Source: Desulfobacteraceae bacterium Eth-SRB1 (GTDB lineage: Bacteria; Desulfobacterota; Desulfobacteria; Desulfobacterales; ETH-SRB1). From it: 64,000 nt of DNA. Under the pieces are notes generated by a model. The model was given only the letters and a program-made list of their open reading frames with translations, was not told the DNA's origin and made no database searches. Below are positions 3,860 through 50,267 of this stretch, piece by piece; positions within the stretch are counted from its first letter, which is position 1, and every line of letters begins with the position of its first letter. Both the position numbers and the translations under genes were made by a program. The DNA is taken from positions 1,104,790 through 1,168,789 of the forward strand of contig RPGP01000001.1 in the NCBI GenBank assembly GCA_004193555.1, given 5' to 3'.

Positions 3860-5568
3860 GATAATTTTTTCCTTTTTAAGTTGCTGGTTGCTTGTTGCGG
3901 GCTTACTACAGCCCCCTTACTGGCCGATGAAACCATACTTGAATATCTGGCCATATAGCCATGCGTTATTTTCGGCTCCGGAGGAGACCACCCGGCCAGC
4001 CTGTCCTTTATCTCGCTGTCGGAAATCTTAAGGGTTATCTTTTTATCGGGAATATTTATTGATAAGGTATCTCCTTCCCTGACTATTGCAATGGGACCTC
4101 CCTGCATTGCTTCCGGAGAAACATGCCCAATGGAAGCGCCTTTTGTACCTCCTGAAAAACGTCCGTCTGTAATCAGCGCAACATGGCTGTCCAGATTCAT
4201 CCCTGCTATGGCTGAGGTCGGGGTAAGCATTTCCCGCATACCGGGGCCGCCCATCGGCCCTTCATAACGGATTACGATAATGTCTCCTTTTTTAATATTG
4301 CTCTCCAAAATTGCCCGACTCGCTTCCTCTTCCGAATCAAAAACTCTTGCAGGCCCCTCATGGCATAACATATCATCACAAACCGCCGACTGTTTTACAA
4401 CACAACCATCAGGGGCAAGATTGCCGAAAAGTACGGCAAGACCTCCATAGTTATGATACGGGTTATCTACAGACCGTATGATATCTTTATCCAGAGTTTG
4501 AACATCTGTAATATTGTCGCCTATTGTTTTGCCGGTTACCGTCATGCACTCATTATGGATTAAATTTAATCGGGAAAGCTCCTTGATTACAGCGCTTATG
4601 CCTCCGGCCCGGTTCAAATCTTCAATATGATACTTTCCTCCCGGGCTTAAAGAGCACAGGTGCGGCGTTGCCCTGCTGATTCCATTGATCTGGTTAAGCT
4701 CGATATGCACATCTGCTTCCTTTGCTATTGCCAGGAGATGAAGCAGTGTGTTTGTTGAGCAGCCTAAAGCCATGTCAACAGAAAGAGCGTTTCTAAAAGC
4801 CTTCTCTGTCATGATTTTTTTGGGTGTAAGCTGTTTTTCGATAAGGCTTACTATCTGCATGCCCGCTTTCTTGGCCAGCCTGATACGTTCTGACATAACC
4901 GCGGGGATCGTGCCGTTGCCGGGCAATCCCATGCCTATTGCCTCTGTCAAACAGTTCATGGAATTTGCGGTAAACATGCCTGCACAGGAACCGCAGGTAG
5001 GGCAGGCGGCATTTTCAATAGATGCAAGCCGGCTTTCAGTCATCTTGCCGGAACGTACTGCTCCGACAGCTTCAAAGACCGTAATAAGATCGATTTTTCG
5101 GAAACCTGTTTTTTCGGGATGTTCTCCGGCAAGCATAGGCCCCCCGCTTATTATAATAGCAGGAAGATCCAAGCGGGCGGCTGCCATAAGCATTCCGGGC
5201 ACAATCTTGTCGCAATTTGTCACCATAACCAATGCATCAAAAGCATGCGCTATTGCCATGACCTCAATTGAGTCGGCAATAAGCTCACGGCTCGCAAGAG
5301 AATATTTCATCCCTGTATGGTTCATGGCGATGCCGTCACAAACACCGATAGTGCCGAATTCGACAGGAGTGCCTCCTGCCATGTAAACTCCCGCCTTAAC
5401 CGCTTCTACAATTTTATCAAGATGGACATGACCCGGAATAATCGCATTCGCTGGATTAACAATGCCGACAAACGGTTTCTGTAATTCAATATCCGTGTAA
5501 CCGATTGCTTTTAAAAGGCTGCGATGCGGAGCCCTCTCAATACCTTTTTTAACAATATCGCTTTTCAT
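3856..5568 (-). CDS. ilvD: dihydroxy-acid dehydratase
   Basis: Fe-S dehydratase that makes the 2-oxo acid precursors of valine and isoleucine (and hence leucine). At 570 aa it is the usual family length. Cluster-ligand cysteines are visible in [11 protein letters not shown] and [20 protein letters not shown], and the C-terminal GRFSGGTKG segment is present. It is the first structural gene of the operon, preceded by a very G-rich ribosome-binding stretch only about 15 bases below the base of the attenuator terminator. Confidence 0.97.
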
Positions 5569-5583
5569 TAAACCCTTCCCCCC

Positions 5584-5626
5584 AAAAAAAATCCGTTATC
5601 AGTTTTGAGGCTGATAACGGATTTTT
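5584..5626 (-). terminator. attenuator terminator of the ilv operon
   Basis: A perfect 16-bp stem (5587-5602 with 5611-5626, containing ATCCGTTATCAG) and an 8-base loop are followed on the minus strand by eight T residues. It lies between the leader peptide and ilvD, where an intrinsic terminator makes sense only as a conditional attenuator. Confidence 0.9.
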
Positions 5627-5651
5627 AAGAAATTGTAAAATTAAGCCATTA

Positions 5652-5738
5652 TTAGCCCCATTCCTCGTTGCAGGATAGTATTCCTACGACGAGGACAATA
5701 ATTAGACTAATATAATTAATGGCTACTATTTTCTTCAT
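5652..5738 (-). CDS. branched-chain-rich leader peptide of the ilv attenuator
   Basis: This 28-codon ORF starts MKKIVAINYISL and ends CNEEWG-stop. It holds 6 Ile, 4 Val and 3 Leu codons, 13 of 28, clustered between codons 4 and 21. A weak Shine-Dalgarno (AGGCAG) lies about 11 bases before ATG. It sits between a good promoter and a strong terminator directly upstream of ilvD. This matches the layout of enterobacterial ilvL-type leader peptides, where ribosome stalling at scarce branched-chain tRNAs prevents terminator formation. An alternative is a tiny lipoprotein (GILSC resembles a weak lipobox), but the regulatory context is far more convincing. Confidence 0.85.
   Translation of the reverse strand: MKKIVAINYISLIIVLVVGILSCNEEWG
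5663..5694 (-). promoter_or_regulatory. leader hairpin (pause/antiterminator candidate)
   Basis: CCTCGT (5663-5668) pairs with ACGAGG (5689-5694), with an inner AGGA/TCCT pair. This structure overlaps leader codons 15-26. A second possible pairing joins leader codons 5-8 (5717-5724) to a segment just after the leader stop (5644-5651, eight bases). These are the mutually exclusive structures expected of an attenuator; the exact switching partner is not resolved by eye. Confidence 0.6.
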
Positions 5739-5773
5739 AATAATTTACTGCCTATAACTTCCTTTAAAACTAT

Positions 5774-5802
5774 TTTTTAGCATCTTCTAACAATAGTGTC
5801 AA
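5774..5802 (-). promoter_or_regulatory. sigma70-type promoter of the ilv operon
   Basis: On the minus strand a consensus -35 TTGACA (5797-5802), a 17-bp spacer and a -10-like TAAAAA (5774-5779) lie about 35 bases before the leader-peptide ATG. Predicted transcription starts near 5767, giving a leader of roughly 200 bases. Confidence 0.75.
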
Positions 5803-5889
5803 GTTTTTTATATATTAACAAAATATCTTGTCTAAATAAAAAATACATGATAAGAAAAATTTTTATATCTTGAATAAGGAGGGCAACAA

Positions 5890-6390
5890 ATGGCACAGGA
5901 CAATGACAATAAGGTTTCAATAATAACAATGGCTGCAATCGTAATAGTGATTTCTTTCGTCTTGCAGGTGGTTTTTGTTTATGCCGACAAAATAGATTCG
6001 CCGCACAAAGCGGTTGTTGATTTTTCAAAGGCATATTTCTGGCTGGACAAATCGATGGCTGAGCGGCTCTGCAACGACCAAAGAATTATAGACGGAGTCG
6101 ATGTTGTGGATGAATATATCCAGAGCGTTGCCAGCAATGCAAAAGAAAACGGCTGGGGCATAAATTACATGAAAAGCTCAATTTACCACATAGAAACACA
6201 CACATTAAGCAAGGATGACTCCAACGCCGTAGTCAGATTGACCTGTTCCAAAAAAAAGGCAATCAACCCGGTATTTCCGCCCTTCGCTAAAATATTTCGT
6301 CTTAACAAAACCTATCATATTGATGAAACAATCAATGTTGTTAAAGAAGACGATACATGGAAGGTATGTGGAAAGGTTTTTGATTTGTAA
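5890..6390 (+). CDS. membrane-anchored protein of unknown function
   Basis: A 166-aa protein with a short polar N terminus, one hydrophobic segment (about residues 9-31, IITMAAIVIVISFVLQVVFV) and a soluble C-terminal part. The C-terminal part has alternating beta/alpha character and resembles small NTF2-like or DUF4878-like extracytoplasmic domains, though I cannot name a family with confidence. A good ribosome-binding site (GGAGGGC) precedes the ATG. It is divergent from the ilv operon and stands alone; function unknown. Confidence 0.75.
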   Translation: MAQDNDNKVSIITMAAIVIVISFVLQVVFVYADKIDSPHKAVVDFSKAYFWLDKSMAERLCNDQRIIDGVDVVDEYIQSVASNAKENGWGINYMKSSIYHIETHTLSKDDSNAVVRLTCSKKKAINPVFPPFAKIFRLNKTYHIDETINVVKEDDTWKVCGKVFDL

Positions 6391-11734: not shown

Positions 11735-13045
11735 TTAAATACTCAAATACTTTTCCAGTTCTCTCTGAGTAACGTGAGTTCTATGATCTTCCCAGTCATC
11801 TGTCTTTAACGACATATAGTTGTGGTAAATCCCTTCGCCAAGCAGATCCTTTAAAAACCTGCTTCTTTCAGCCTCTAACAAGGCCTCAAACAAACACCTG
11901 GGCAGGAACCGCTTGTCAGTTACGCGGGCATGAAAATAATTGTCATATGTGCTTTTCACATCCGGCTGACCACATTGCAAATCTTCTTCTATGCCTTTAA
12001 GTCCCATGGCAATAAAGGTCGCGAACTGCAAATATACATTGCCTGCCGGATCTGGATTTCTCAACTCAATTCTCGTGCTTTCCGGGTTCTTTGCATAGGG
12101 CACCCTGAGCATTGAGCTTCTATTCCTGAAGCCCCAGCCACTGACAATCGGAGCTTCCTGATCCATCACATATGCCTTGTATGAATTGAAATTGGAGGCC
12201 ATGATAATTGATGTTTCCCTTGCATATTTCAAAACGCCGCCGATAAAATGTTTGGCGAGAAGGCTGAGATTATGATCGGCTTCCTTGTCATAAAACAGGT
12301 TTCTTCCATCCTGATCCTGCATGGAAAGGTGAACGTGAAAGGCATTTCTATTATATCCGTCAAATGGCTTGGGCATAAAAGTTGCGTAATACCCAAACTC
12401 TGCCGCAACTTTCTGTGTAACATAATTAAACAACACTGTGCGGTCTGCTCCCGCCAAGGGGTCTATGGGCTCCAGGTTAATTTCATGCTGGGAAGGGGTT
12501 GCTTCATGATGGGCTTTTTCAAACTTTATCCCGCAATCTTTAAGTATGTTGATGATTCTGTTCCTTACCAGTTCACCCTTGTTGTAGGGTGTGGATTGAA
12601 AATAACCGGCATTATCGGAATGGGTTTTTTTACCAAATTCATCGCCGGTGAGCAAAAAGAACTCATGCTCAGGGCCAGCCTTAAACCTGTATCCATGTTC
12701 AGATTCTGCTTTGTTTAAAACTTTTTCCAGCACAGCTCGGGGGTCAGACTTTGCCCGCATTCCCCATTCATTATAAATATGGCCGACAAAGAAACCGAGT
12801 GTTTCATCAGAAAATTTTACAGCACGAAAACTTTCCGGGTCAGGCAACAAAAGCCTATCGCTGTTTTCAACCGTGGCATAGCCGGGAATAGAGCTTCCGT
12901 CAAAGCCTATCCCGTTTTTAATCAGCTCCTCAATATTTTCCGGATTTATCGGCAGACTCATGACCCTGCCGTTTAGATCGGTAAACAGAATTTTTGTTGT
13001 TTCCACATTTTTTAGTTTTTCTTTAATTTCTTCAATACTGCCCAT
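11735..13045 (-). CDS. glnA: glutamine synthetase type I
   Basis: ATP-dependent ligation of ammonia to glutamate. Start chosen at ATG 13045 (MGSIEEIKEKL) because CAGGAGGGC lies just upstream; an in-frame ATG at 13129 would add 28 residues unlike the family. At 436 aa it shows GFDGSSIPGY, GPEHEFFL, HHEATPSQHEINL, NAFHVHLSMQ and NRSSMLRVPYA, covering the metal, ammonium and ATP sites. The adenylylation tyrosine motif of GSI-beta (NLYDLP-like) is absent and the length is that of GSI-alpha enzymes, so regulation by GlnE is unlikely. Monocistronic, flanked by repeats. Confidence 0.95.
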   Translation of the reverse strand: MGSIEEIKEKLKNVETTKILFTDLNGRVMSLPINPENIEELIKNGIGFDGSSIPGYATVENSDRLLLPDPESFRAVKFSDETLGFFVGHIYNEWGMRAKSDPRAVLEKVLNKAESEHGYRFKAGPEHEFFLLTGDEFGKKTHSDNAGYFQSTPYNKGELVRNRIINILKDCGIKFEKAHHEATPSQHEINLEPIDPLAGADRTVLFNYVTQKVAAEFGYYATFMPKPFDGYNRNAFHVHLSMQDQDGRNLFYDKEADHNLSLLAKHFIGGVLKYARETSIIMASNFNSYKAYVMDQEAPIVSGWGFRNRSSMLRVPYAKNPESTRIELRNPDPAGNVYLQFATFIAMGLKGIEEDLQCGQPDVKSTYDNYFHARVTDKRFLPRCLFEALLEAERSRFLKDLLGEGIYHNYMSLKTDDWEDHRTHVTQRELEKYLSI

Positions 13046-13289
13046 GGTTTTAAGCCCTCCTGATAAACTACAATAAATATTACCTATAGTGACTGTGAGC
13101 GCAATATCAAGTGTAATTATAAAATGCAATATTTTTCCATATGATTATTACTTTTCCTTATGTTCCCTGTGAAATCTAAACCTAAATCTTGTGTTCATCG
13201 GGCATATTGAATATAGTAGCCGTTCACGGCTTGAAATTGGAAAGTAGAAATTGGGGAGAGATTTTCTCTGAACTGCTATATTTTTTATT

Positions 13290-50096: not shown

Positions 50097-50171
50097 GCGG
50101 GAATAACTCAGTGGTAGAGTGCGACCTTGCCAAGGTCGAAGTCGCGGGTTCAAATCCCGTTTCCCGCTCCA
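50097..50171 (+). tRNA. tRNA-Gly (anticodon GCC)
   Basis: Full cloverleaf: acceptor GCGGGAA/TTCCCGC, D arm ACTC...GAGT, anticodon stem CGACC/GGTCG with loop TTGCCAA, T arm GCGGG-TTCAAAT-CCCGT, and an encoded CCA end. Confidence 0.97.
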
Positions 50172-50192
50172 TTTCTTGATCCATTTTTTTTG

Positions 50193-50267
50193 GGCGGCAT
50201 AGCCAAGTGGTAAGGCAGCGGTCTGCAAAACCGCTATTCACCAGTTCGAATCTGGTTGCCGCCTCCA
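50193..50267 (+). tRNA. tRNA-Cys (anticodon GCA)
   Basis: Full cloverleaf: acceptor GGCGGCA/TGCCGCC, anticodon stem GCGGT/ACCGC with loop CTGCAAA, T arm CCAG-TTCGAAT-CTGG, encoded CCA. It lies 21 bases after tRNA-Gly and is probably co-transcribed. Confidence 0.97.

Follow-up and report, generated by a model that had tools for sequence, protein, structure and literature searches.

The branched-chain operon ilvD-ilvB-ilvN-ilvC-cimA of Desulfobacteraceae bacterium Eth-SRB1 is very probably preceded by a ribosome-mediated transcription attenuator of the ilvL/leuL kind. The element lies on the minus strand of the window, the 64,000-nucleotide stretch of DNA that was analysed (contig RPGP01000001.1, positions 1,104,790 to 1,168,789 of the forward strand), for which an earlier note, made from the sequence alone, had proposed a leader-peptide attenuator ahead of ilvD. 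The parts of the element, their conservation, the covariation of its antiterminator and terminator helices and the mutual exclusion of these two are computational observations.

In the direction of transcription, the leader region begins with a -35 box TTGACA (5802-5797), followed after a 17-nucleotide spacer by a putative, weak -10 box TAAAAA (5779-5774). The leader peptide is encoded by the open reading frame (ORF) MKKIVAINYISLIIVLVVGILSCNEEWG at 5738-5652, with its ATG at 5738 and its TAA stop codon at 5654-5652. Direct reading confirms the 28 codons claimed for it in the earlier note, 6 of them for isoleucine (Ile), 4 for valine (Val) and 3 for leucine (Leu), which makes 13. Of all ORFs of 24-35 codons in the window that start with ATG, 239 with the leader counted in, it is the only one that reaches 13/28 Ile/Val/Leu, the mean fraction being 0.22. 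Two elements are contained within the leader: region 1, which is bipartite (5724-5704) and can pair with region 2, and an internal pause-type hairpin CCTCGTC...AACGAGG (5694-5663), also announced in the note and recognisable in both sequence and fold. Region 2 (GGCTAATAATGG, 5657-5646) overlaps the leader stop and has either region 1 or region 3 as its partner, and region 3 (CCGTTATCAGCC, 5620-5609) can pair either with region 2, giving the antiterminator, or with region 4. The predicted intrinsic terminator is the 3:4 stem-loop at 5626-5587, to which sequence, fold and covariation all point. Its arms AAAAATCCGTTATCAG (5626-5611) and CTGATAACGGATTTTT (5602-5587) form the expected 16 base pairs (bp) around the loop CCTCAAAA, the 8-T run occupies 5591-5584, and 15 nucleotides (nt) separate the end of the terminator from the ATG of ilvD. 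A consensus scan did not return this structure, presumably because the U tract lies partly inside the stem. The RNA from 5767 to 5575 folds at -58.6 kcal/mol and is far more stable than its 200 shuffles, none of which was equally stable (z = -6.29).

The earlier note does not list the true competitor of the terminator, namely the 2:3 antiterminator, in which 5657-5646 is complementary to 5620-5609 at 11 of 12 positions. The note had instead put forward an 8-bp pairing between leader codons 5-8 and the sequence just after the stop. This pairing exists, but it forms the outer part of the 1:2 hairpin and was rejected as the antiterminator. Helices 1:2, 2:3 and 3:4 compete in the classical attenuator manner, with duplex energies for the chosen segments of -15.9, -16.3 and -19.9 kcal/mol, respectively.

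The element recurs ahead of ilvD in related genomes. An initial search for ilvD was positive in 27 of 29 genomes, with the own genome among them, and the element was seen by eye in 23 of these 27 upstream regions; one region (L008) ends at a contig edge, and in three (L023, L026 and L027) inspection by eye did not show the element ahead of ilvD. R1, a covariance model of regions 2-4 which was trained on one order and in which only 3:4 is modelled as pairs, places the element ahead of ilvB instead in the genome of L027 and also matches in that of L023, with the next gene lost at the contig end. A scan of named genomes yielded 80 loci, mostly titled Desulfobacteraceae, Desulfobacterales or Deltaproteobacteria and in a few cases only Proteobacteria. 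This set is dominated by metagenome-assembled genomes (MAGs), includes Candidatus Desulfaltia, Desulfonema magnum and Desulfosarcina cetonica, and has some contigs in common with the initial ilvD search. The element is present in both Desulfonema magnum (L044) and Desulfosarcina cetonica (L089). With one locus (L034) lacking upstream DNA, 79 were usable, and leader, antiterminator and terminator are present in 74 of them. Among named genomes, Desulfobacteraceae and Candidatus Desulfaltia MAGs come closest, in agreement with the suspicion that this is a genome of Desulfobacterota type. In relatives, the leader codons and the position of the stop are conserved jointly with antiterminator and terminator, and a terminator that had outlived its leader was encountered in none of the 74 element-bearing named loci. 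Across the order, R1 matches 139 of 146 genomes.

Both the antiterminator and the terminator helix covary. This is seen in an alignment of 63 of the 75 loci formed by the window and the 74 element-bearing named loci; the 12 left out are mostly close relatives of others. In helix 2:3, 93.8% of 756 cells are paired and 6 of the 12 pairs are changed on both sides, with 18 doubly changed cells against 2.8 in shuffles, and registers slid along the helix give 16-62% pairing, none above 61.5%. Helix 3:4 is paired in 95.6% of 1008 cells and has 39 doubly changed cells against 15.2 in shuffles; as these covariation counts come from related sequences, they are not probabilities. A telling locus is L108, with region 3 reading CCGTTACTTGCC and region 2 reading GGCAGGTAGCGG, still paired at 12 of 12 positions.

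A leader ORF that stops within region 2 or close to it is found in 75 of 75 loci, with ATG as start codon in 74, and its Ile/Val/Leu fraction has a median of 0.50 (range 0.34-0.59), a figure biased upward since Ile/Val/Leu content was one of the criteria for choosing the ORF. Relative to region 2, the stop starts at +3 nt in 47 loci, at +14 in 16, at +6 in 8 and elsewhere nearby in 4, a position from which a terminating ribosome would be expected to cover region 2. The reading frame tends to be preserved between regions 1 and 2: in the 54 loci where one region 1 stands out as best, with 10 pairs or more, the gap modulo 3 leaves remainder 2 in 41, remainder 0 in 12 and remainder 1 in 1. Codon use fits sensing as well: the Leu codon CTA makes up 15% of leader Leu codons compared to 3% in ilvD, and in the window its share is 0.0 in four ilv genes with two CTA codons in the leader, though constraints of RNA pairing may explain part of this excess. 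Upstream of the leader start, TTGAC occurs within 110 nt in 66 of the 68 loci long enough for the test, where 6.2 would be expected from shuffles.

A hydrophobic peptide which starts with MKK and contains a lipobox-like ...VVGILSC could also be functional in itself, as a small membrane lipoprotein or a signal peptide, with the terminator ending its own transcript and ilvD served by a promoter of its own. Such an independent small gene would need neither a stop fixed on region 2 nor covariation of regions 2 and 3, and the lipobox-like motif is present in only 7 of the 75 leaders. The lipoprotein reading was rejected on this count and the explanation as a whole is extremely unlikely.

Somewhat less improbable, yet still very unlikely, is a leader RNA sensed by something other than a ribosome, be it a T-box binding tRNA, a ligand riboswitch or a protein. 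A conserved structured leader with a terminator, one arm of which (CCGTTATCAGCC) is unusually constant across loci, would suit such a sensor, and the passages available from PMC3766115 mention T-boxes in Geobacter. The Ile/Val/Leu-coding frame that is kept in the leader and the frame-keeping spacing of regions 1 and 2 argue for a translating ribosome instead. Searches with Rfam release 15 at gathering score gave no leader family and matched only two tRNAs in the window, the best hits within 5400-5950 being sub-threshold and of unrelated families; the T-box model (RF00230) has no match in the window or in the own genome. T-boxes and known Rfam leaders were rejected as candidates for this reason.

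The same leader peptide and hairpins might act mainly through translation-coupled or Rho-dependent control and not through intrinsic termination. Most loci have about 15-45 nt between the end of the terminator and ilvD, so that the structure could also affect initiation of ilvD. In L054, L055, L059 and L072, by contrast, this distance is 110-144 nt, and a T-rich tract stands at the end of the 3:4 stem in all 63 aligned rows, both of which point back to intrinsic termination and leave only a minute probability for this alternative.

From the attenuator arrangement we infer transcription start, leader translation, ribosome stalling and regulated read-through as follows. RNA polymerase would start near 5767 and transcribe the 28-codon leader. 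Under a shortage of tRNA charged with Ile, Val or Leu, a ribosome would stall on codons 4-21 and block the pairing of the leader with region 2, which could then pair with region 3 ahead of the synthesis of region 4. The resulting antiterminator would permit read-through into ilvD-ilvB-ilvN-ilvC-cimA and perhaps leuA. With plentiful amino acids, the ribosome would proceed to the stop inside region 2 and mask it, leaving region 3 to form the 3:4 terminator. In an untranslated leader, 1:2 would protect the terminator only if it formed fast enough.

These steps were probed by folding partial transcripts. With the RNA ending before region 4, 11 bp of 2:3 form in the window at each of ten ribosomal A-site positions tested from codon 2 to codon 22, falling to 7 bp at codon 24, 6 at codon 26 and none at codon 28. 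Extended to the 75 loci, the folding gives a 2:3 helix of 8 bp or more in 74 if most of the leader is masked and region 2 stays accessible, and a 3:4 helix in all 75 if region 2 itself is masked. In untranslated RNA ending before region 3, region 2 is paired with the leader in 75 of 75 loci. The 1:2 pairing has a mean of 10.48 of 12 pairs compared to 9.01 in shuffled leaders, the highest of 200 shuffles giving 9.24.

Several results weigh against a ribosome-mediated attenuator or against parts of the mechanism. The Shine-Dalgarno sequence of the leader is weak and distant in the window, and an AGG/GGA-like site at -18 to -4 was found in 35 of 68 loci. A consensus promoter scan did not return the TTGACA-17-TAAAAA promoter, which is present where the earlier note had placed it, though with a poor -10 box. 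With region 4 present, the terminator is the minimum-energy fold in every stall state of the window that was tested. As the terminator wins whenever region 4 is present, antitermination must be kinetic and hence depend on timing. Timing dependence is also a feature of known attenuators. The presence of 3:4 in 71 of 75 untranslated full-length RNAs does not discriminate either, because the terminator wins anyway once region 4 is there. Once an untranslated RNA includes region 3 but does not yet reach region 4, its minimum-energy fold has region 2 mostly paired with region 3 in 53 of the 75 loci, the window being one of them, and a leader pairs better with its own region 2 than with foreign ones on average in only 54 of 75 loci (means of 10.48 vs 9.71 pairs of 12). 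The evidence for the 1:2 arm is therefore weak, and what an untranslated leader would do is the least certain part of the model. To these have to be added 7 of the 146 genomes of the order, which have no R1 match, and 5 of the 79 named loci (L087, L097, L099, L101 and L103), in which the element is missing before ilvD. In all five, NCBIfam identifies the gene directly upstream of ilvD as the citramalate synthase gene cimA (in L099 its C-terminal part only). R1 finds the element directly ahead of cimA in L101, has no match in L087, L097 and L103, and gives only a weak match elsewhere in L099 (E 0.13).

The distribution of R1 extends beyond the order. In a class sample it matches 181 of 194 genomes, the members listed all belonging to the same order or nearer. 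In a phylum sample it matches 52 of 394 genomes, and 34 of these are listed as "same phylum", outside the order; the whole-genome searches were confined to the phylum, within which a missing match does not amount to absence of the element. These 34 genomes hold 42 distinct listed places, not counting opposite-strand hits at the same place, which arise because the terminator is palindromic. At 36 of the 42 places the next gene is cimA, ilvB, ilvD or leuA, as named by BLAST to the five proteins of the window (cimA as an 81-residue part) and, for some, by NCBIfam. The remaining six precede an acyl-CoA dehydrogenase gene (L161), a shikimate kinase gene (L189) or nothing fitting (four places). The last four, L190, L191, L194 and L195, look like chance hits and were rejected as true elements. 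Taking the 36 places together with L161, a leader ORF is present in 37 of 37, with at least 35% Ile/Val/Leu in 35, and in 31 a simple search pairs regions 2 and 3 at 9 or more of 10 positions. Within the order, 11 further places were picked, namely 10 second places and the ilvD place of genome G035. Nine of them precede an ilvB, cimA, ilvD or leuA-like gene; at another (L197) the next ORF has no NCBIfam name at E up to 1e-30, and the eleventh (L206) belongs with the aromatic leaders described below.

Some individual places deserve mention in their own right. L161 (G502:C278:3836-3922, minus strand) is a candidate attenuator with an Ile/Val/Leu leader before the acyl-CoA dehydrogenase gene, whose product has its best match, below cut-off, in the acryloyl-CoA reductase family; the same genome has L168 before cimA. 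Genomes G117 and G091 appear to have two attenuators each (L202-L205), one before ilvD (L203 and L205) and a second before a divergent leuA-like gene, identified by NCBIfam for L202 and by likeness for L204.

Leaders of other composition accompany genes for aromatic amino acids and tryptophan (Trp). In the own genome, an aromatic-rich leader MTQNFSGRIYWYFWYYNTGLPVVR with a terminator (L215) is found ahead of G000:C29:375595-376371 on the minus strand, the gene for 2-amino-3,7-dideoxy-D-threo-hept-6-ulosonate synthase, and its regions 2 and 3 pair at 11 of 12 positions. A second one (L217), ahead of G000:C40:296734-298119 on the plus strand, consists of the leader MIKFKKQIAVNKEFECWWWQAYRCGFAIGTLSV and a terminator before trpE. 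With three consecutive Trp residues (MIKFKKQIAVNKEFECWWWQ...), this leader looks like trpL; a simple 12-mer search for its antiterminator gave only 9 of 12. Upstream of the own hisG and lysC, no histidine-rich or threonine-rich leader was seen in 350 nt, and these stretches look like coding DNA of the neighbouring gene. Two similar arrangements were noticed in other genomes of the phylum. The place before the shikimate kinase gene, L189 (G230:C86:30711-30798, minus strand), has a leader rich in phenylalanine (Phe), tyrosine (Tyr) and Trp and a terminator, and L206 (G035:C20:31265-31351, plus strand) has a Phe/Tyr-rich leader and a terminator before a gene for 2-amino-3,7-dideoxy-D-threo-hept-6-ulosonate synthase.

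The gene order downstream of the attenuator, as proposed in the earlier note, is borne out by NCBIfam, which was used to identify the structural genes. All are on the minus strand: ilvD for dihydroxy-acid dehydratase, the first structural gene (5568-3856, TIGR00110, E 2.1e-240), ilvB for the large subunit of acetolactate synthase (3859-2174, TIGR00118, E 3.6e-259), ilvN for its small subunit (2140-1652, NF008864, E 7.8e-67), ilvC for ketol-acid reductoisomerase (1348-296, TIGR00465, E 2.5e-96) and the 5' part of cimA (244-1), which runs beyond the window and matches TIGR00977 with E 3.3e-33 on the partial frame. Downstream of cimA and outside the window follows leuA (G000:C1:1101590-1103068). 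Inspection by eye of the gap of about 330 nt between cimA and leuA did not reveal a second leader, and R1 has a single match in the own genome, i.e. no second such element was found there.

Elsewhere in the window, a gene at 11521-10544 on the minus strand encodes a KamA-family radical SAM aminomutase, for which the best NCBIfam model, below cut-off, is arginine 2,3-aminomutase. Near it lies a glutamine synthetase-like gene at 11735-13129. The plus strand carries adjoining genes for tRNA-Gly(GCC) and tRNA-Cys(GCA) at 50097-50267.

Leader-peptide attenuation may be native to Desulfobacterota, of old standing there and in general use for controlling amino-acid synthesis, with one covarying RNA family for branched-chain operons that occurs in the order and beyond before whichever gene is first (ilvD, cimA, ilvB or leuA) and with sister attenuators for aromatic amino acids and Trp. 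We give this wider proposal an even chance of being right. If true, it contradicts the view of such attenuators as essentially gammaproteobacterial: according to the part of PMC3766115 consulted, the four motifs of this kind that Rfam contained at the time may have a gammaproteobacterial origin, with very few horizontal transfers. The family in 139 of 146 genomes of the order, the places outside it and the Trp and aromatic leaders add up to a wider picture of leader-peptide attenuators. What is gained is a covariance model, regulatory predictions for sulfate reducers and a pointer to small unannotated ORFs that matter.

In the text available from PMC545781, which deals with delta-proteobacteria, the terms "ilv" and "leader peptide" do not occur, and the passages available from PMC2965389, PMC8632094, PMC2864571 and PMC5343134 hold no ilv attenuator in Desulfobacterota. 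Titles and abstract openings in the literature searched, which covers few subscription papers, likewise contain no description of the element in Desulfobacterota, and an earlier report is possible. The mechanism, being of the ilvL type, is well known; it is the lineage and the RNA family that are without description in the literature searched. Vitreschak and colleagues are said to have surveyed proteobacterial attenuation in 2004.

Among known systems, the closest in logic is ilvL of Escherichia coli K-12, which controls ilvXGMEDA by attenuation. Both have an Ile/Val/Leu-rich leader peptide and a G+C-rich hairpin with a T run before the first structural genes. The earlier note had spoken of the enterobacterial ilvL design, and this stands as far as the logic is concerned. 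The RNA sequence, by contrast, is that of a family of its own as far as tested: the terminator sequence differs, and in the 1 kb of sequence surrounding E. coli ilvL R1 matches nothing at E up to 1, a result with which common ancestry would still be compatible. The element described here also differs in that it precedes ilvD and in that citramalate synthase and leuA are part of the cluster. The attenuator of ilvBNC in Corynebacterium, as presented in the available parts of PMC10272879 and PMC11857589, is similar in having a leader upstream ORF or hairpins before an ilv operon, but it belongs to a different phylum and is compared here by description. Structured RNAs before ilvD or ilvB are also known as the Veillonella ilvD motif and the Leptospira ilvB motif; in the passages available from PMC8632094, these are weak riboswitch candidates confined to their genera, and the comparison is by description only. 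Candidate ilvB leader peptides of Actinobacteria, in the portion of PMC1262725 available, are similar in that ilvB is preceded by terminators and by short ORFs in which Ile/Val/Leu codons occur in runs, whereas the element of Desulfobacterota has, in addition, a separate covarying antiterminator.
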